NCBI GenBank assembly: GCA_017510705.1 | Contig: JAFWMO010000018.1 | Coordinates: 1-39,066, forward strand | Direction of reading: 5' to 3' | From: Candidatus Saccharimonadota bacterium | Lineage (GTDB): Bacteria > Patescibacteriota > Saccharimonadia > Saccharimonadales > Saccharimonadaceae | Length of the DNA stretch: 39,066 nucleotides | In this document: piece by piece, positions 20,501 through 29,153 of the stretch | Numbering within the stretch: position 1 is the first letter of the stretch | Layout: the number at the start of each line of letters is the position of its first letter | Notes under the pieces: generated by a model | The model's input: only the letters and a program-made list of their open reading frames with translations | What the model was told of the DNA's origin: nothing | The model's database searches: none | Translations under genes and position numbers: made by a program

Positions 20501-20819
20501 TGTCAATTTTTCTGGTATATTCGTCCGAATAATTTTTATATTGCGCCAAAATCTCCGACCCAAAAGCATGATAAGTAGAGACGTTTACCTTGAGGCCATC
20601 CTTTCCAACTATCTTTTTTAGCCTTTCACGCATATTTTTGGCGCCATTCTCCGTGAAAGTAATACATAGAATATTCTCTGGCGCCATGTCGGTATTTTTT
20701 AAAATATATGCCACCTTTTCAGAGAGAAGTTGAGTCTTACCGGTGCCCGGACCCGCCAGCACCAAAAGTGGCCCATCTAGGTATTCTACCGCCTGCTTTT
20801 GTTTAGCATTCAGGCCCAT
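17565..20819 (-). CDS. UvrD/PcrA-type helicase fused to PD-(D/E)XK nuclease
   Basis: This 1084-aa protein is a superfamily 1A DNA helicase with a C-terminal nuclease, resembling AddA/RecB. Helicase motifs are Q-motif LNAKQKQAV, Walker A AGPGTGKT (22-29), motif Ia ITFTENGA, motif II MLDEFQDTN, motif III AVGDDDQAIFEFQGA, motif IV ALTENYRST, motif V TAHGSKGLEFEHVFI and motif VI LYVALTRAK. The nuclease end shows GILVHATFEKV, TGKVDHIRI and EIYDFKTSG, the PD-(D/E)XK core without a visible iron-sulfur cysteine cluster. It should process double-strand breaks or unwind DNA. Its ATG overlaps the end of gpsA by 10 nt behind AGGAG, so the two are cotranscribed. Confidence 0.92.
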   Translation of the reverse strand: MGLNAKQKQAVEYLDGPLLVLAGPGTGKTQLLSEKVAYILKNTDMAPENILCITFTENGAKNMRERLKKIVGKDGLKVNVSTYHAFGSEILAQYKNYSDEYTRKIDSPIDEVTQFKVVKEIRDKLPGTDILHGDNIKDIIEVISAAKGANLSAEDLNKIAEINIEDSRVLSEAISPLLLNVVPRDFEKSFENAYRPIYEILRNYAEAAPEISLGEYKTPVHRNIALIAKDMKDAILEAESAHKITPLSKWRDGYFEKSEKGTYRLKDRVANKKLLSIAKVMTRYEERLREEGLFDYDDMIQEAVRVLKADQGFKLTLAERYQVIMLDEFQDTNPSQLAIIESITDYDKPMIMAVGDDDQAIFEFQGALSSNFASFQEHYNAEVIALTENYRSTQEILDFSHKIIMEAPDRYADKELIAHKEPLKSTGILRAEFLSSDMEYSYVADEIARLIKSGVKQNEIAVISQKRKYFEPLLPFLSEHKEIKIAYEKQNDLMGDERMHQIFTIARYIYECANEKRVDVSLLEILSYPFFKLPILEIIKLSGVAKYDKRSAFEVFSDSGNEDIKTVMTFFANLIAKSFNEPLEIFLDYLVGAMPLEGYKSPFLEYYAKEKDYATFTLYEDLAALRGRLSKHFGEKNLRLSDLIMMLDDYAEAEMGLNVVSPYKEAEEAVQILTAHGSKGLEFEHVFIISADHIAWGKGKGNNNLLSLPKNLTHIRHTGVTDSERLRVLYVALTRAKSHLYITNSKHDFNEKSPERLEYFEEYEEDGAIISPLIPSGRVEIHYDLSAPEIAAKNVRNWFLPYVNASPDLMAIYKERVANYRMSASSLTSFVDICYAGPEKFFEERILMAPKEAPTEAMIFGILVHATFEKVTNEGISDEEAVEFFLSELEKQDLSVETKSKLREKGPADLVISLKTFANILRDGEAEVNLGSDKLVINGVPVTGKVDHIRIDEENKEIEIYDFKTSGYHKEKWTSHATLYKYMLQLGFYKLLLNNSPKYSKYKISKAHILFVVPDKDDEVHDKVYEFNSADEKELLELMAAVYYQISSLDFLKDADLMLSPDSTKGIKDIKKFIELLLAKNQEK

Positions 20820-21589
20820 TCTTTGCTCCTGCTAATCAAATCTTTTAGCTTTGTCGCCTCTTTAGGCACCATTATTTCACCATTTTTGATCTTTTTTAGT
20901 GCAGACAACCCCTCTACGGTTTTTTCTGGCTCAGCTTTTGGGTTTTTGCGAAGAATCTGCCCAAATTCATAATTTCTAGATGGAAAATCACAAGTAATCT
21001 TGAGGTCACCCTTGCCACAAACCAAATCTACCGTCTCTGCTTTTGCACCATTTTCTAGTAGCACGAGTTTCATCTCATTTGCTGTCCCTTTCAGAAACTC
21101 CATGTGCTCACCAGTGCCGGCTTTTAGCCCCAAAAGCCCACAATATAGTGCGTACACATTCTTGAGCGCCCCGCACATTAGCACGCCTTTCTCATCCGTC
21201 GTACGATCAAAAGTAAGATAATCCGTGCCAAATAGCTCCTCAATACGATTATCCGTGGCGGTAAGTTTGGCATTTTTGTGAGCCTTGATATCATCTGCAA
21301 ACCCCGGCCCAGAAATAATCATATAGTCTTTAAAATCAGCAAAAATCTTATCAGACAAAATGCCCTTAGTCGCAACTACCATCGGCTTATTTTTGGGCAG
21401 ATGGGGCAAAAGATATGGCACAGCCTTGCTTGGTACCGCCAACACCAACATTTTTGCATCATCTAGCACTTCATGCAGAGTTTCTTTTTCGCATTTACTA
21501 TCATAATAATCTATATCATAACCTTTGTCCGCCAAAATACCACCGAGTGCAGTGCCAAACGCCCCCGCCCCCAAAATCGCAATTTTCAT
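20810..21589 (-). CDS. gpsA: Glycerol-3-phosphate dehydrogenase (NAD(P)+), short form
   Basis: This 259-aa protein is a GpsA. It shows the dinucleotide-binding GAGAFG at 7-12, ATKGI, SGPGFAD, the catalytic-lysine strand CGALKNVYALYCGLLGL and the C-terminal GDLKITC/SRNYEFG substrate motif. GpsA makes sn-glycerol-3-phosphate from dihydroxyacetone phosphate for phospholipid or teichoic-type polymers. It is about 70 residues shorter than the usual 330; most of the loss appears to be in the Rossmann half, while the catalytic half is complete. GGAGGA precedes the ATG, and TGG-TAAAAT (21621-21613) is the likely promoter. It forms an operon with the helicase gene. Confidence 0.88.
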   Translation of the reverse strand: MKIAILGAGAFGTALGGILADKGYDIDYYDSKCEKETLHEVLDDAKMLVLAVPSKAVPYLLPHLPKNKPMVVATKGILSDKIFADFKDYMIISGPGFADDIKAHKNAKLTATDNRIEELFGTDYLTFDRTTDEKGVLMCGALKNVYALYCGLLGLKAGTGEHMEFLKGTANEMKLVLLENGAKAETVDLVCGKGDLKITCDFPSRNYEFGQILRKNPKAEPEKTVEGLSALKKIKNGEIMVPKEATKLKDLISRSKEWA

Positions 21590-21612
21590 TTTCCTCCAAA
21601 GTTATAAATACT

Positions 21613-21621
21613 ATTTTACCA
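21613..21621 (-). promoter_or_regulatory. Extended -10 promoter of gpsA-helicase
   Basis: On the minus strand TGG-TAAAAT precedes a leader of roughly 15-20 nt with a GGAGGA SD. It directly follows the terminator of the membrane-protein pair. Confidence 0.55.
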
Positions 21622-21622
21622 C

Positions 21623-21658
21623 AAAAATTCCCCGAGCGTTAAGCCCAGGGGATTTTTT
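21623..21658 (-). terminator. Terminator of the 129/150-aa membrane gene pair
   Basis: On the minus strand AAAAAATCCCC ... GGGGAATTTTT form the stem, with TTAA in the loop. It shares sequence with the terminators at 22572-22608 and 23027-23057. Confidence 0.7.
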
Positions 21659-21670
21659 AATTTCTTTAGT

Positions 21671-22123
21671 TTATTCCAATCTAGGGCTTGGCTCATCATC
21701 AAACCACTTCGTAATCACGTCTATGTCGCATCCGTTTTGCAAAGCGATTCTTTTGGCGGAATCCTCACCCCATTGCAAGTAATAGGAGACGAGTTTGTCC
21801 CTAAAGAAAGGGCCGAGCAGTATTTCCATAAAACCTAAAACAAATACAAAGACTAAACATATTACGAAGAATTGATTAGTAAAAAGATGCGTAATCCACG
21901 CTAAAGCAATTGCCAAGCTACAGCTGATCAACGATGTAAAAAAGAATACAAAGTTGAGTATAGTTTGGAGCATTGTAGCTTTTGTGTAATTAGACGTAAT
22001 GGAATTACTCTCTTTATCAAAGTAAAACCAATGATCGATTCGATAAGAGAGTACGCCAAAGAAGATGATAGACACAATCAAGTATAGCCCATCGACAATT
22101 AATAATAGATGCCAATAATTCAT
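21671..22123 (-). CDS. Small three-TM membrane protein, 150 aa
   Basis: I do not recognise this protein. It has three hydrophobic segments (about residues 5-26, 52-74 and 78-104), a polar stretch between the first two, and an acidic C-terminus ending GCDIDVITKWFDDEPSPRLE. It overlaps the upstream 129-aa gene as ATGA behind a GGAGGGG SD, so translation is probably coupled. It is one of four neighbouring proteins with the same three-TM layout (21671-23422). Confidence 0.75.
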   Translation of the reverse strand: MNYWHLLLIVDGLYLIVSIIFFGVLSYRIDHWFYFDKESNSITSNYTKATMLQTILNFVFFFTSLISCSLAIALAWITHLFTNQFFVICLVFVFVLGFMEILLGPFFRDKLVSYYLQWGEDSAKRIALQNGCDIDVITKWFDDEPSPRLE

Positions 22124-22509
22124 TCGCCCCTCCTTTTTAATTGAATACTTAAAGCTTTTTGCCTCATACCACTAACTTTAGTGAAAACCAAGTAAACGAT
22201 ATACCAATGCAACGCGATCGAAATAAGGACAATAAAATCATAAAGCACCATAGTGAAGAATTGATCATTTTTGCATAATTCCATCAACAATTGGGAACAG
22301 CAAATCTTAAGAATTAGATAATAAAACGCTTCAATTCCAGCAATAAAAATACGGTTATCCCTATTAAATCGAATAGAACAAAAACGCCCATCAATGCGCA
22401 CTGTCTCTGTAAAAAGTACAGCGCAGATTGCAGTAGTAATTAGCATTACTCCACCAATGATATATGGAATAAGCCAAACTAAAACTTCAGAAAAATTGTT
22501 AATTTGCAT
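22120..22509 (-). CDS. Small three-TM membrane protein, 129 aa
   Basis: I do not recognise this protein. It has three TM segments (about residues 8-33, 52-72 and 84-108), a basic loop after the first (VRIDGRFCSIRFNRDNR) and a basic C-terminus ending LKRRGE. It is preceded by TGG-TATAAT (22550-22542) and an AAGGAGGGGAG SD, and overlaps the 150-aa gene by 4 nt. Basic loops would face the cytosol. The layout resembles the two neighbours downstream of promoter copies at 22997 and 23497. Confidence 0.75.
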   Translation of the reverse strand: MQINNFSEVLVWLIPYIIGGVMLITTAICAVLFTETVRIDGRFCSIRFNRDNRIFIAGIEAFYYLILKICCSQLLMELCKNDQFFTMVLYDFIVLISIALHWYIVYLVFTKVSGMRQKALSIQLKRRGE

Positions 22510-22541
22510 ATTCTCCCCTCCTTAAGAATGAATTTTATATG

Positions 22542-22590
22542 ATTATACCATATAATTCCGCTTTTGGCAAGAAAAATCCCCGAGCGTTAA
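22542..22590 (-). repeat. Terminator-promoter repeat, copy 1
   Basis: This 49-bp block matches 22997-23045 at about 44 positions. Read on the minus strand it holds the 3' arm and T-tract of the previous gene's terminator (GGGGATTTTTCTTGCC), a spacer with AAAGCGGAAT, and the TGG-TATAAT promoter of the next gene. Confidence 0.8.
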
Positions 22591-22608
22591 CCGCTCAGGG
22601 AGTTTTTT
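22572..22608 (-). terminator. Terminator of the 122-aa gene (contains its stop)
   Basis: On the minus strand CCCTGAGCG-GTTAA-CGCTCGGGG is followed by ATTTTT. The TAA stop of the 122-aa gene lies in the loop, and its last codons form the 5' arm. Confidence 0.85.
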
Positions 22609-22955
22609 AATTTCTTAAGTCTGGCTTTTCCGGCCAGCGTCAATATCGTATACACCACCACAATATATGCCGCCAGAAGAACCGCCACTATGCCAGTGGC
22701 TACATACGGATATGCCTTATTGCCATCTACCAGCCACTCGGCATACGGTATCAGCACCGGGGTGCACGCAATGGCGCACATACCCATAAAAAAAGCGCAT
22801 ATGCCAGTAATTAGTTGCTTTTCAAACCTTGTTATTATTCTGATCCTTTTTCGTCCACGCACTTTCACGATACGGACAAAGAATAATGGGATAATGCCCA
22901 CTGCAACAAAGGTTACAAAGGCGAAAATCGCCGTAAAAATTGGAACGTACTTCAT
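22587..22955 (-). CDS. Small three-TM membrane protein, 122 aa
   Basis: I do not recognise this protein. Three TM segments (about residues 6-28, 46-70 and 82-108) frame a very basic loop (RIVKVRGRKRIRIITRFEKQ) and a basic tail (GKARLKKLKNSLSG). It has an AAGGAGGG SD, a TGG-TATAAT promoter (23005-22997) and its own terminator that includes the stop codon. Hydrophobic layout and length match the flanking 126-aa and 129-aa proteins, which suggests distant paralogy. Confidence 0.78.
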   Translation of the reverse strand: MKYVPIFTAIFAFVTFVAVGIIPLFFVRIVKVRGRKRIRIITRFEKQLITGICAFFMGMCAIACTPVLIPYAEWLVDGNKAYPYVATGIVAVLLAAYIVVVYTILTLAGKARLKKLKNSLSG

Positions 22956-22996
22956 ATAAATTCCCTCCTTTTTTATATGACAATCTACTACAATAT

Positions 22997-23045
22997 ATTA
23001 TACCACATCATTCCGCTTTTGGCAAGAAAAATCCCCCGGCCTTAA
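22997..23045 (-). repeat. Terminator-promoter repeat, copy 2
   Basis: This is the second copy of the 49-bp block at 22542-22590, with differences mainly in the TA/CA spacer and the terminator arm. It holds the terminator tail of the 126-aa gene and the promoter of the 122-aa gene. Confidence 0.8.
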
Positions 23046-23057
23046 CGGCCAGAGGAT
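23027..23057 (-). terminator. Terminator of the 126-aa gene (contains its stop)
   Basis: On the minus strand TCCTCTGGCC-GTTAA-GGCCGGGGGA is followed by TTTTT. The TAA stop of the 126-aa gene lies in the loop. Confidence 0.85.
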
Positions 23058-23422
23058 AAAAATTTTTCTTTTGTATTTTGGCCAAATTTATAAGCCAATC
23101 TAGAAAACCATACTATGATTCCGACGAAAATTGCTATAGCAATCAGCACAGACAATAAGACCCAAAAAGGATTTATGTCCGCTTCGGCGTAGCTCATAGA
23201 GAGACCTAGTAATTTTACAAAAGTACCGGTAAACACCGACATTAGTATAATGCCAACGCACTCAGCAATAATAGCGGAAATAACCACTATTTTCCCTGGC
23301 CTTCTCGTCCTTACCGTCCATTTTCTGGTCCATTTAGACCAAACTCGTTTTTTTGAGTTAAATCCGAAAATGAACCCACAGACTACAAACAATAAACAAA
23401 ACACAAAAAACAAAATCACCAT
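23042..23422 (-). CDS. Small three-TM membrane protein, 126 aa
   Basis: I do not recognise this protein. Three TM segments (about residues 2-20, 46-72 and 84-108) are separated by a strongly basic loop (SKKRVWSKWTRKWTVRTRRPGK); the tail is polar and basic (GQNTKEKFLSSGR). It is the first of the series and has the best promoter in the window (TTGACA, 17 bp, TATAAT). A 70-75-nt leader with alternative hairpins precedes an AGAGAGGG SD 8 nt before the ATG. It ends inside its own terminator. Confidence 0.78.
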   Translation of the reverse strand: MVILFFVFCLLFVVCGFIFGFNSKKRVWSKWTRKWTVRTRRPGKIVVISAIIAECVGIILMSVFTGTFVKLLGLSMSYAEADINPFWVLLSVLIAIAIFVGIIVWFSRLAYKFGQNTKEKFLSSGR

Positions 23423-23448: not shown

Positions 23449-23525
23449 CTAAGCCTCCCTTGGAGGCTTAGTCCTCCATTACAAGCTTCACCTACCATTA
23501 TACCACATAAGCTTAAAAATGTCAA
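23449..23525 (-). promoter_or_regulatory. Consensus promoter and hairpin leader of the 126-aa gene
   Basis: On the minus strand TTGACA (23525-23520), a 17-bp spacer and TATAAT (23502-23497) with an upstream TGG form a near-perfect promoter; its -35 box overlaps the stop codon of the FKBP gene. In the leader, CTAAGCCTCC-AAG-GGAGGCTTAG is a perfect 10-bp stem (23471-23449). A second pairing, GGAGG-ACTAAG-CCTCC, uses the same CCTCC, so the two are mutually exclusive. A three-codon ORF (ATG GAG GAC TAA) overlaps the first GGAGG. Confidence 0.65.
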
Positions 23526-24241
23526 TAATTATATTCGCTGTCGTAGTCTATGCCATATTGCGCATATTGAAGCCTAAGATACGCCGTGTCTAGTTCCGAA
23601 GCAAGCGTACTAAGTGGCTCTTTTTTCTCCATTGGCATAATCATAAATTTAAGAGGTTTGTTGTATCCTCCGCAAATCTCCATAGAGCTGCCATATGCCA
23701 AAGTACTAGGCACCGTAATCACCCTGATACCGCCCAACTTCATACCTTCTACCCCAGTATTCCAGCCCTCTATCATCCCTACAGACGCGTCCAAAATCTT
23801 TGCAAAAGCAGCCGGATTCTTGTCGCTATCAAAAGACGAGTCAAAAATACTCTCATCCGCACACCATCCCACATAATAAGCCAGATAATCATTATCTCCA
23901 TCTGTTAGTTCGCGACCACTACCAGCCACTAAATCCTTTTTCTCTACCGGCCCAGAATTTGCCGAAGCCTCGTTGTAAGCTTTTATCTCTGTATGATATT
24001 TATAAAACTTATCAAAATCACTCTTTGTAGTAGATTTAAACTCAGCTAATTTCTTGGCGTAATCATCCTCGTATTCACGCATTTTTTCATCAGAAATTTT
24101 GCTGGTAGTACCGCTACTAGACTTACCGCCATTTATTACGATTGCAGCATAACTCGCTATTATTGAACCTAGCATTACCACTGCAATCAAAATTATCACA
24201 AACCGCTGTTTCGGGCTAGTTTTTAGCTCTTTTTCATCCAT
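23522..24241 (-). CDS. Membrane-anchored FKBP-type peptidyl-prolyl isomerase
   Basis: This 239-aa protein has a basic N-terminus, one TM segment (about residues 13-37), a charged coiled-coil-like linker (about 50-95) and an FKBP domain (about 100-208). FKBP signatures are VGMIEGWNTGVEGMKLGGIR, VPSTLAYGSS and PLKFMIMPM. FKBPs catalyse proline cis-trans isomerisation and help folding of exported proteins; the anchor places the domain outside the cell. It is preceded by TGC-TATAAT (24270-24262) and an AGGAG SD. It ends within the promoter of the next gene, without a terminator. Confidence 0.88.
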   Translation of the reverse strand: MDEKELKTSPKQRFVIILIAVVMLGSIIASYAAIVINGGKSSSGTTSKISDEKMREYEDDYAKKLAEFKSTTKSDFDKFYKYHTEIKAYNEASANSGPVEKKDLVAGSGRELTDGDNDYLAYYVGWCADESIFDSSFDSDKNPAAFAKILDASVGMIEGWNTGVEGMKLGGIRVITVPSTLAYGSSMEICGGYNKPLKFMIMPMEKKEPLSTLASELDTAYLRLQYAQYGIDYDSEYNY

Positions 24242-25576: not shown

Positions 25577-25906
25577 TTAAAACTCCAATCCTTCCTTGCG
25601 AGCTGCATCAGCTAAAGCGCTCATACGGCCTGCATATAATTTAGAACCACGGTCAAATACAACTTTCTTTACCTTGGCGGTCTTTGCCTTTTTGGCAATT
25701 TCTTCACCAATTTTAGCTGCTTTTTCCGTTTTGGTACCAGTCATTTTAGCGCCTACAGTAGTAGCATAGGCTAGAGTTACCTTCTTGTCATCATCAATGA
25801 TTTGAGCGGTAATGTGTAGGTTCGAAAAATGAACGGAGAGACGTGGACGCTCAGCGGTGCCATGGATTTTAGCACGGGTGCGGTTTGCTCTAAATACTTT
25901 ATTCAT
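25577..25906 (-). CDS. rplR: Ribosomal protein uL18
   Basis: This 109-aa protein is uL18, which binds 5S rRNA in the central protuberance. RPRLSVHFSNLHITAQIIDDD and the C-terminal FDRGSKLYAGRMSALADAARKEGLEF are characteristic. Its ATG shares one base with the rplF stop (TAATG), so translation is coupled. Confidence 0.96.
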   Translation of the reverse strand: MNKVFRANRTRAKIHGTAERPRLSVHFSNLHITAQIIDDDKKVTLAYATTVGAKMTGTKTEKAAKIGEEIAKKAKTAKVKKVVFDRGSKLYAGRMSALADAARKEGLEF

Positions 25907-26442
25907 TATTTCTTTCCTGCCTTTCCAGCCTTACGGATGATAACTTCATCAACATATTTAATACCTTTACCCTTGTATGGCTCAGGTTTCTTGAGGCTGC
26001 GGATTTCAGCAGCAACTTGGCCGACTTTTTGCTTATCGATACCACTTACTGTGATTTCCATCTTATTAGTTGCAAGATCAACGCCTTCTGGAGCTTTGTA
26101 TTTCACAGGGTGTGAAAAACCAAGTGCCATTTCAATTTCCTTGCCACCACCTGACAAACGAAAACCTACACCGTTGATTTCTAGTTTTTTCTCGTAACCT
26201 TTGGTCACACCAACAACAGCGTTGTTTAGAAGAGCGCGTTGTAGGCCGTGCCAAGCACGAGATTTTGGCTCGTCATCCTCACGGGTAACGGTAGCCGTAG
26301 TACCTTCGACTGTAACTTTAGTCTTAGGCTGAACCGGAACAATGAGAGTGCCCTTAGGCCCTGCGACAGTAATCTCTTTGTCGCCGACCGTAATTGTCAC
26401 TCCTGCCGGAATTTCGATAGGTTGTTTTCCGATACGACTCAT
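25906..26442 (-). CDS. rplF: Ribosomal protein uL6
   Basis: This 178-aa protein is uL6 (MSRIGKQPIEIPAGVTITV; C-terminal RSLKKPEPYKGKGIKYVDEV). It is now the first gene of a separate unit, because the surface-protein gene intervenes between rpsH and rplF. It has its own promoter (TGA-TATAAT, 26480-26472) and a GGGAAAG SD. Confidence 0.96.
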   Translation of the reverse strand: MSRIGKQPIEIPAGVTITVGDKEITVAGPKGTLIVPVQPKTKVTVEGTTATVTREDDEPKSRAWHGLQRALLNNAVVGVTKGYEKKLEINGVGFRLSGGGKEIEMALGFSHPVKYKAPEGVDLATNKMEITVSGIDKQKVGQVAAEIRSLKKPEPYKGKGIKYVDEVIIRKAGKAGKK

Positions 26443-26552: not shown

Positions 26553-28646
26553 TTAGTTCTTTCTAGCATTTATCTTTCTCGTTATAAATATAAAGCTAGA
26601 AATCATTGTAAGCGAACCGGCCACGATCGACGCAACAATTGTCGCACCCATTGCGGAACCACCTTGACGAGTTATCACGCCTGTATCTGGAGCTTTTGCG
26701 GTGTCTACGTAGGTTAATACAAATGTAGAATACTTATCACTTGTAATAGTAAACTTGCTTCCATCACGCACAAAATCAACTCTGGCGGCAGACGTTTCAC
26801 CGTCGATAGCATAATGTCCACGAATTACGCTAAATTCCCTAGTATAACCATCCGCTGGCTCGAGATCGATACTTGGAGCAAGAGATTCTAATGAAGTGTC
26901 TATTACAAATGGGAGTGGTGTATCCATCTCTAAAACATATCCTAGATATGTGCCATCAGATGAATAGATATCAGCATACACATCATACATAGCTAGAATC
27001 TTTTCGTTTTCGCCAAGTTCTGCCATGATTTTGTCGTGTGCATCGGCATACTCATATTCATCTTCATCATATTTGTAATCTACATAAAGCACCGTTTTTA
27101 TAGTTTGACCGCTAGCCAATCTCACTTTTAGATCATCGAGATTATTACTATTAAATGCAATCTTACCGTTAGTGGTTTTACCGCTTTTAAGCAACTCCGA
27201 TATTTGGCGACCCACAAAATCCGCCAGTACATTTTGGGACGTTTCGTCTATGTCGCTATTCTCACCAGGAGTAACCTCGTATACGACCACATTTATGTTG
27301 CGATCAATAGGATTCTTATAATTGTGCAAATTAAAGTTAATAAGACCAGAGCCAACCTTATCTGCAGTAATTGTGGTATCACTTAGGGTGGCTACATCAG
27401 ATGAATTCCCAAACGTACCATATTTCTTGGCAACTTCAGATAGTGTCACAGTCTCCGCCTCGCCAACTTGCAAAAAGAGGTTATCTGGCAAATCGACCGT
27501 CGTTTCTGCGTCCACAAAATATGGACCATCTGGGCCTTTATCATATTCATCATACCCATCAGCAATATAGGCGGTATTAACTTCGCTCGAATACTCACCA
27601 CCAGATATCGTCGTGACGATTTCATTATCCACTACACCAAAACCAGCTGCAGGATTTGGCACAATATCATGCGCATCTTCAATAAGACGAATCACATCAA
27701 CGCCAGCCTTGCTAGAAAAAGTACCGCCAGATATTTCGACGTTCATATCTTGTGCGATTTTGCCAGCATTCCATACTAGAAGCGCAGAACCATTTGCCGC
27801 AGAAATTTTACCACCAGTAATCTTTATATTCAATGAATTTCCATAGGTTGGGTTAGCGCTACTGTATTGACCTCCCTGAACAGCGATAGCGTCGCCAAGC
27901 CACGCATAGCCGTCCCCAAGATTGTAGTAATCTTCGAGAGCATCAAGGCCACTAGCCGAGGCAATTCCATTAATTGTACCGCCAGTTATTTCAATCTGGC
28001 CCATCTTTACATAAATACCACCGTTTAATGTCCCACCAGAAATCTTCAAATTAACTTGAGAAGGCATAAACACTGTTTGGTATTGTGATTTTAGTTCTCC
28101 ACCGGACATAATAAAGTTCATATCACCAGTTGTATTATTGCCACCAACCGCAGCACCATAACTTGCAGTAGTATCAACTACGCCACCAGTCATATTCAAC
28201 GTCGACCCTCCAAAAATATAAAAACCATAGCCGCTTCCATGTGCAAGCATCTTCAAAGTTCCACCTTTTAGATTTGCCGTTGCACCAGCTCCTAGCTCTA
28301 CAACATTTCCACCTTGAGCAAGTATTTCCCCATCCCCATCAATAGACACAATGGTGTTTGCGCCTTCAATGCTTAATGCAGAAAAATTACCAGAAGTAAT
28401 AGTTTTCCCAGTAATATCAATATCCATGCTGTCAGAAAATACAATCGTGTTTTTTAGGGTAATATCATTTACGGCTGAATTACCAATGCCAGCAATTAAA
28501 TCCGCGGCCGTCTCCGCAAAACAACTTGCACTCGTAATACCGGTTGCACAACGGATGCTTTCTTCCGCGAAGACATTAAGCGATGCAATTGCACCACAAA
28601 ATACCAACGCAAACATCGCATAACCTAAACGTTTATGTTTTACCAT
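26553..28646 (-). CDS. APDTG-sorted beta-helix surface protein
   Basis: This 697-aa protein has a signal peptide (about residues 1-28, ending SLNVFA). A repetitive beta-helix region follows (about 60-360), with recurring GGT/GGK turns such as MTGGVVDTT, ISGGTLNGG, ITGGTINGI and ISGGTFSSK. Less repetitive domains come next (about 370-640), then a C-terminal sorting signal: APDTG near residue 652, a hydrophobic helix and a basic tail (TRKINARKN). A sortase should cleave at APDTG and anchor the protein; one is encoded at 11515-12006. The start at 28646 is set by GGAGGT 3 nt before ATG; a longer reading frame upstream is not needed. The gene has its own promoter and terminator and sits inside the spc ribosomal operon. 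It is probably an adhesin. Confidence 0.85.
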   Translation of the reverse strand: MVKHKRLGYAMFALVFCGAIASLNVFAEESIRCATGITSASCFAETAADLIAGIGNSAVNDITLKNTIVFSDSMDIDITGKTITSGNFSALSIEGANTIVSIDGDGEILAQGGNVVELGAGATANLKGGTLKMLAHGSGYGFYIFGGSTLNMTGGVVDTTASYGAAVGGNNTTGDMNFIMSGGELKSQYQTVFMPSQVNLKISGGTLNGGIYVKMGQIEITGGTINGIASASGLDALEDYYNLGDGYAWLGDAIAVQGGQYSSANPTYGNSLNIKITGGKISAANGSALLVWNAGKIAQDMNVEISGGTFSSKAGVDVIRLIEDAHDIVPNPAAGFGVVDNEIVTTISGGEYSSEVNTAYIADGYDEYDKGPDGPYFVDAETTVDLPDNLFLQVGEAETVTLSEVAKKYGTFGNSSDVATLSDTTITADKVGSGLINFNLHNYKNPIDRNINVVVYEVTPGENSDIDETSQNVLADFVGRQISELLKSGKTTNGKIAFNSNNLDDLKVRLASGQTIKTVLYVDYKYDEDEYEYADAHDKIMAELGENEKILAMYDVYADIYSSDGTYLGYVLEMDTPLPFVIDTSLESLAPSIDLEPADGYTREFSVIRGHYAIDGETSAARVDFVRDGSKFTITSDKYSTFVLTYVDTAKAPDTGVITRQGGSAMGATIVASIVAGSLTMISSFIFITRKINARKN

Positions 28647-28650
28647 TTTA

Positions 28651-28674
28651 CCTCCATTTAATACTTCTATTATA
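28651..28674 (-). promoter_or_regulatory. Promoter and SD of the surface-protein gene
   Basis: On the minus strand TATAAT (28674-28669) lies about 22 nt before the ATG, with GGAGGT as SD. No TGN extension is present. Confidence 0.6.
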
Positions 28675-28706
28675 ATGCTCGTGGCAAAATAAAACAATAG
28701 CAAAAT

Positions 28707-28740
28707 GCAACAAAAAATCTCCAAAAGGAGATTTTTTGCA
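28707..28740 (-). terminator. Terminator after rpsH
   Basis: AAAAAATCTCC-AAAA-GGAGATTTTTT is an 11-bp perfect stem with a T-tract, 12 nt after the rpsH stop. It closes the first ribosomal unit (rplC-rpsH). Confidence 0.9.
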
Positions 28741-28751
28741 CAGTTTGTTTT

Positions 28752-29153
28752 TTACCAAACTTTTACTAGAATTTCGCCGCCGAGACTATTTTTCTTAGCA
28801 TCACGACCAGTCATCAAACCTTTAGAAGTGGACACAATGACTGCACCACGGCCAGATTTAATGGTTGGGATTTCAGCTGCAGCAGAGTAAACTCTACGGC
28901 CTGGTTTTGAAACTTTGGTAATCTCGTTGATTTTGGCAATAGTACCTGGCTCGTTAATTACAACGCGAAGAATGCCACGTGGCTTTCCATCTTCTACTGT
29001 GTAAGAAGCAAGATAGCCATTCTTTACTAAAATCTCTACGATTGCTACTTTGAGTTTAGAAGTAGGAACGAGAATTTCAGTCTTGCCAGCACTTATCGCA
29101 TTACGAATACGCGTAAGCAGGTCAGCGATTTGATCAGTAGATTGTAACGACAT
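28752..29153 (-). CDS. rpsH: Ribosomal protein uS8
   Basis: This 133-aa protein is uS8, which binds the central domain of 16S rRNA. DQIADLLTRIRNAISAGK begins the first domain, and the C-terminal VIVSTSKGLMTGRDAKKNSLGGEILVKVW contains the conserved STSKG RNA-binding loop. It is the last gene of the upstream ribosomal unit; a terminator and a foreign-looking surface-protein gene follow instead of rplF. Confidence 0.96.
   Translation of the reverse strand: MSLQSTDQIADLLTRIRNAISAGKTEILVPTSKLKVAIVEILVKNGYLASYTVEDGKPRGILRVVINEPGTIAKINEITKVSKPGRRVYSAAAEIPTIKSGRGAVIVSTSKGLMTGRDAKKNSLGGEILVKVW

Follow-up and report, generated by a model that had tools for sequence, protein, structure and literature searches.

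The locus and its control modules

The window, that is the whole stretch of 39,066 nucleotides that was analysed, belongs to a genome of 658 kb in 19 contigs and carries on its minus strand, in this order, an FKBP gene, four small genes termed P4, P3, P2 and P1, and a gpsA-like gene (Table 1). Judged by the FKBP gene, the relatives of this genome are Saccharibacteria from rumen and gut. P4 lies directly downstream of the membrane-anchored FKBP gene in the same orientation and is followed by P3 to P1. Since the gpsA-like gene and the FKBP gene lie apart in the relatives compared, the position of the former next to P1 is regarded as a rearrangement. The names gpsA and FKBP derive from profile searches, and pheT, sbcB, ldh, nusA, rplF, rpsH and leuS were recognised by eye.

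The ORF list, a Kyte-Doolittle scan and a self-comparison of the window recovered everything that a first-pass annotation had described here at the level of inventory, namely four small open reading frames, three hydrophobic segments in each of them and near-identical modules in between. The annotation had also ascribed to all four proteins a layout of TM1, basic loop, TM2, TM3 and tail. This holds for P2, P3 and P4, which combine three transmembrane (TM) segments with a basic TM1-TM2 loop (charge +2, +8 and +10, respectively) and a basic tail, while P1, with a neutral loop (0) and an acidic tail (-3), conforms in the number of TM segments only. Elsewhere in the window, within a run of ribosomal-protein genes, a surface-like protein of 723 aa with a C-terminal TM segment and a basic end is encoded between rplF-like and rpsH-like genes and gives a weak match to Pectate_lyase_5 (E 0.0085).

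Table 1. Features of the locus, with positions counted from the first letter of the window.
Feature	Position	Strand	Remarks
gpsA-like gene (glycerol-3-phosphate-dehydrogenase-like)	20810..21589	-	elsewhere in relatives
Third module copy	21603..21670	-	diverged, looser; 79% over 68 nt (70 columns, E 2e-11, self-comparison)
Terminator-like stem	21650-21630		
P1	21671..22123	-	150 aa; 3 predicted TM; 4-nt overlap with P2; weakest family candidate
P2	22120..22509	-	129 aa; 3 predicted TM; homologous to P3 and slot protein L179
Module P3/P2	22542..22594	-	terminator stem and promoter TTGCCA-17-TATAAT
Terminator-like stem	22601-22577		
P3	22587..22955	-	122 aa; 3 predicted TM; stop codon inside own terminator loop
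Module P4/P3	22997..23049	-	terminator stem and promoter TTGCCA-17-TATAAT
Terminator-like stem	23057-23031		
P4	23042..23422	-	126 aa; 3 predicted TM; stop codon inside own terminator loop
P4 promoter-like site	23497..23525	-	TTGACA-17-TATAAT, 12/12, TG before -10
FKBP-type peptidyl-prolyl isomerase, membrane-anchored	23522..24241	-	anchor gene of the slot; Pfam FKBP_C E 2e-11
rplF-like gene	25906-26442		
723-aa surface-like protein	26553-28724	-	
rpsH-like gene	28752-29153		

The motif TGGTATAAT occurs upstream of P4, P3 and P2; its four matches in the 39-kb window compare with 0.53 expected, and four were reached in none of 100 shuffles. The TGG-TATAAT promoters proposed earlier for three of the four genes were confirmed at P4, P3 and P2 as full promoter-like sites, those of P3 and P2 agreeing with the consensus at 11 of 12 positions each. 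P4 and P3 end within their own terminator hairpins, with the TAA in the loop and a T-run that reaches the -35 box of the following promoter. Judged from sequence, P4, P3 and P2-P1 likely constitute three transcription units, each of which would possess a strong promoter and a terminator of its own. A strong promoter, however, is the rule in this chromosomal position in relatives and not special to the window, because among 50 first genes examined there, 45 reach a promoter score of at least 10 (TG bonus included) and 41 show a TATAAT preceded by TG.

The two modules that separate P4 from P3 and P3 from P2 are 89% identical over 53 nt (self-comparison, E 1e-13), which substantiates the claim of near-identical terminator-promoter units. 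Their 25-nt core, searched with up to three mismatches, is present in two copies in the genome, both in this array, and a 27-nt version was encountered in 9 of 218 loci, all nine of them overlapping pieces of the window's own place. The third, more diverged copy starts at the base after the P1 stop codon and corresponds to the last eleven codons of P3 together with terminator and promoter, the equivalent of the P3 tail lying outside the P1 reading frame.

The FKBP slot and its protein family

Of 99 genomes in the genus, 95 gave an FKBP match, among them the genome that carries the window. The region downstream of the FKBP gene, hereafter the slot, was inspected in 63 and a further 32 loci, of which four with less than 600 nt were excluded from the counts. 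Among the 91 usable loci of the same genus or of relatives, 45 contain one small 3-TM gene, seven contain two to five and 39 were scored empty, so that at least 52 of 91 slots are occupied. The empty class is an overcount, as the ORF picker masked members in L027 (G173) and L125 (G189) behind overlapping opposite-strand ORFs, both of which the family-profile search detected; the occupied class, in turn, includes some ORFs of doubtful status (82-104 aa), four longer proteins that stand behind another gene and two opposite-strand genes. Arrays comprise five genes in L089, three in L168 and two each in L094, L100, L104, L146 and L171. In g11, another genus of the family, a pheT-like gene, FKBP, a 3-TM gene and an sbcB-like exonuclease recur in this order; since the succession FKBP, 3-TM gene, sbcB is thus found there too, the block has outlived a change of its upstream neighbour.

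Several slots deviate from the simple pattern. In L134 (1196-2128) and L137 (1182-2192), the slot-family member carries a long extension at the C-terminus, reaching 310 and 336 aa, respectively, and stands behind a thioredoxin-reductase-like gene. In the close relative G001, a five-gene array replaces the single slot gene (L089 186-2983), three of its genes forming a separate 2-4-TM cluster. A second group of small TM proteins, with an RPExYETPxxA-like outer loop (motif recognised by eye), shares the slot in L094, L104, L168, L171 and L100. Apart from the slot, a 3-TM gene of the family follows rpsH in L248, much as the gene for the 723-aa protein of the window adjoins an rpsH-like gene.

The FKBP-adjacent slot defines a Saccharibacteria 3-TM family, here designated slot family A1, that has no Pfam or NCBIfam name: scans of 40 members against both collections revealed no family matching more than one of them. 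These 40 members align with a common pattern, FNxW ahead of TM1 and ESxxGIxQxxxNxL where TM2 ends. The strict form ES..G[ILV].Q, at the outer end of TM2, is a hallmark of the family and not a requirement; it is present in 20 of 45 single-gene slots and in the gene that opens the L252 array, whereas the 18 genes from other slot arrays all lack it. The predicted model of one member (pLDDT 93.6, pTM 0.81) comprises a helix at residues 14-31, a small hairpin at 34-44 and helices at 48-81 and 89-147. The predicted anatomy would place the N-terminus outside, followed by TM1, a basic cytoplasmic turn, TM2, a short acidic outer loop and a TM3 that continues into a long cytoplasmic helix. Matches to the family profile were obtained in 43 of 118 genomes of the genus at E 0.01 and in 51 of 295 genomes at family level at E 0.001, the latter spanning 7 of 61 genera. 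Against PDB sequences, the best profile match had E 0.036 and a bacterial relative was absent among the leading matches, fold searches with the family model yielded nothing significant in the PDB (best E 1.2) or in a viral library (best E 0.25), and literature searches in one library listed nothing on the family.

The constant neighbour invites the reading that slot proteins are envelope-maintenance partners or substrates of the adjacent FKBP, and it is favoured by the adjacency of both genes in two genera that differ in the upstream neighbour. Nevertheless, as many as 39 of the 91 FKBP-bearing loci have a slot scored as empty, a figure known to be an overcount, and L247, L248, L249 and L250 harbour family members without an adjoining FKBP gene; we therefore consider such a partnership unlikely.

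Relationship of P1-P4 to the slot family

In whole-genome searches at E 0.01 and at E 0.001, the family profile found nothing in the genome that carries the window, and ES..G[ILV].Q is absent from all four proteins (0/4). A 60-member profile, which like the family iteration was built without any window protein, scored P4 at E 3e-4, P2 at 7e-4, P3 at 0.011 and P1 at 0.21 (7.5 bits; Z=1000), the match of P4 spanning nearly its whole length. All four exceed 23 natural 3-TM control segments, none of which surpassed 3.0 bits. Composition-preserving shuffles of the proteins themselves reached the real score 16, 5, 60 and 25 times per 1000 for P1, P2, P3 and P4, respectively, and with profiles of 14 to 40 members the shuffles equalled or exceeded the real score of most of the four more often than with 60. 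In a test of mean scores, the corresponding numbers were 2, 25, 88 and 3 per 500, with three of the 23 natural controls attaining Z 1.9, about the value of P2, and none attaining 2.8, a value close to those of P1 and P4.

Direct comparison established homology between P2 and P3 (0 of 1000 glocal shuffles; 3 of 5000 in a second test) and between P2 and the slot protein of L179 (0 of 5000 shuffles; E 2.5e-4), while the five other pairs among P1-P4 exhibited no similarity in direct pairwise tests. Taken together, P2 and P3 match the family profile over TM3 (E 1.9e-5, probability 77.5). In hhalign, the alignment of P4 with the family keeps the TM2-TM3 loops in register (E 4e-4, probability 35); P1 is likewise in register, but fails to reach significance (E 0.056, probability 1). 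The first-pass annotation had named a comparison of predicted structures among the four as a check. A model was predicted for P2 alone (pLDDT 83.6), and its helices H5-33, H50-78 and H83-126 display the family architecture, an agreement that is partly built in, as the underlying alignment included family rows. Family membership thus appears well founded for P2 and P3, fairly so for P4 and weakly so for P1. The earlier view of a tandem-duplicated family hence stands for P2 and P3 on the strength of shuffle tests; for P4 and P1 it is suggested by profile scores above all 23 controls, and the remaining pairs gave null results.

That four unrelated small membrane ORFs were gathered at a hotspot, their likeness reflecting hydrophobic composition, would be in keeping with five null results in six pairwise tests, with shuffles that outscore the real proteins in some cases and with clustering at E<1e-3, in which 67 proteins fell into 16 clusters and P1 and P4 remained single. 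This explanation is contradicted by the homology of P2 with P3 and with the L179 protein, by the scores of all four above the 23 natural controls and by the alignment of P4 and P1 in register with the family (hhalign; not significant for P1), and is in our estimate fairly improbable. Searches in Pfam, NCBIfam, PADLOC and PHROGs placed none of the four proteins above a cut-off; their best matches, Tetraspanin (E 0.007), a Na/H exchanger (E 0.008) and phrog_3878 (E 0.0012), have the look of chance matches among hydrophobic sequences. Protein searches of P1-P4 in 121 genomes of the family returned, outside their own genome, E values of 7e-5 or weaker, often within larger open frames, and the best fold match of the P2 model had E 4.6.

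Divergence, proposed cassette exchange and known systems

Slot proteins turn over far faster than the neighbouring FKBP. In a set of 33 of the 40 family members (seven without an FKBP sequence were dropped), median identity amounts to 26% for slot proteins versus 60% for FKBP, and in every one of 528 pairs the slot proteins are less identical than the FKBPs; one pair, for instance, shares 84% of its FKBP and 26% of its slot protein. Synonymous divergence (dS) is saturated in four of six slot pairs, dN/dS of the other two being 0.14 and 0.22. Computable values for slot and array genes range from 0.13 to 0.43 and give no sign of positive selection; diversifying selection on slot genes is neither demonstrated nor excluded by dN/dS where it can be computed. 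A loosening of constraint may account for a large part of this divergence; the strong promoters and the persistence of the slot in more than one genus are hardly explained in that way.

Our preferred interpretation, with a probability of roughly 0.55, is that P1-P4 represent a local array of diverged slot-family members whose modules result from cassette copying or recombination. The members would descend from the Saccharibacteria 3-TM family with its usual place directly downstream of the anchored FKBP gene, and the modules would owe their near-identity to gene conversion within the array, or to import of cassettes via shared modules, and not to ageing at the same pace as the genes. The main competitor is the view of the first-pass annotation, a plain tandem duplication in which gene, terminator and promoter were copied together and coding sequences drifted under constrained modules. 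The homology of P2 and P3, the 89% identity of the modules and the constraint on promoter and terminator bases agree with it. Yet the unconstrained promoter spacer is kept as well, within an identical 25-nt core, although P3 and P4 have no detectable pairwise similarity, and the copy after P1 holds the equivalent of the P3 coding tail outside the P1 frame. Since a simple duplicate would be expected to carry this tail in frame, its position abutting the P1 stop codon favours replacement of a cassette or a change of frame. Plain duplication is therefore somewhat unlikely. The statement that coding sequences diverged faster than the control modules remains valid as a description of the data, but given the P3-tail copy after P1 and a related mosaic array it is probably not the mechanism; cassette recombination probably fits better than coding that simply outpaced the modules.

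The related array belongs to G166 and G169 (L250 1324-4016 and L251) and consists of five small membrane genes beside a nusA-like gene, with terminators and promoters in between; it sits elsewhere than the FKBP slot of the window. Compared between the two genomes, its neighbouring genes are 55, 95, 90 and 36% identical (dS 1.78, 0.049, 0.395 and saturated, respectively), with dS 0.65 for the nusA-like gene. A block, mostly 92-100% identical, has its left edge just before a gene start, and on the right identity drops about 30 nt into another gene. Read at the sequence level, this array is mosaic, some of its cassettes being near-identical and others very diverged. The nusA-like gene also contains a near-identical patch, so recombination between G166 and G169 is not special to the array. 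Self-comparison of L250/L251 disclosed repeats of 46-95 nt at 60-77%. Among the other arrays, L094 contains a 47-nt likeness at 74%, L146 and L168 a promoter-sized one of 30 nt and L089 a likeness at the level of genes; none was found in L100, L104, L171 and L252.

Rapid turnover, patchy presence and the occurrence of arrays could point to contact with attackers or a host. The proteins may tentatively be viewed as an exchangeable accessory envelope repertoire, perhaps immunity-like, of an epibiont facing changing attackers such as phages, toxins or the host bacterium, which we regard as possible. A more elaborate and rather speculative proposal is an integrase-free cassette system, in which modules flanking single membrane-protein genes would supply the homology for swapping or importing them by natural transformation, yielding strain-specific immunity-like sets against phages or host weapons. 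Saccharibacteria are described as naturally competent (PMC10633639). Cassette exchange via control modules constitutes a testable idea in these bacteria, for which Tn-seq is reported as well. In general, much of the CPR proteome is nameless, and here one chromosomal slot offers a way of ordering dozens of small membrane proteins that could not otherwise be recognised. The pattern seen in this unnamed family is real and orderly and, although of modest size, has an unusual cassette form.

Known systems offer partial likenesses. PADLOC anti-phage profiles produced a sole, weak match, that of P4 to a 2TM effector (E 0.15, 9.2 bits). The Gram-positive tandem five-TM protein Gpos_tandem_5TM (TIGR01218) likewise comprises, by name and description, small membrane paralogs in tandem; P4, at 9.8 bits, stays below its cut-off of 35 and has three TM segments in place of five. 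In channel subunits of the ExbB/TolQ/MotA type, the last TM segment runs into a long cytoplasmic helix. The family model shares this feature with them (PDB 5sv1, 9kpz; ZorA 8qyd), but differs by its tiny cytoplasmic part between TM1 and TM2 and has no significant fold match. An oligomeric pore or ion-conducting protein resembling ExbB, TolQ, MotA or ZorA subunits, with a TM2-TM3 hairpin and a long cytoplasmic helix, would accord with this topology and with the high rank of ExbB and TolQ chains, and the presence of ZorA, among the Foldseek matches of the family model; the best E value, however, is 1.2 with none below 0.001, and VIA Z scores of 5-6 at an rmsd of about 8 A or more lie within chance for helical bundles. 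In our estimate, a pore of this kind is very doubtful. With respect to slot family A1 itself, the copies in the window differ by the absence of the YYHxF and ES..GI.Q motifs, by their number of four and by their weak scores, whereas position, size and the count of three TM segments agree, as does the charge pattern for P2-P4, and the predicted model of P2 suggests a similar helix layout.
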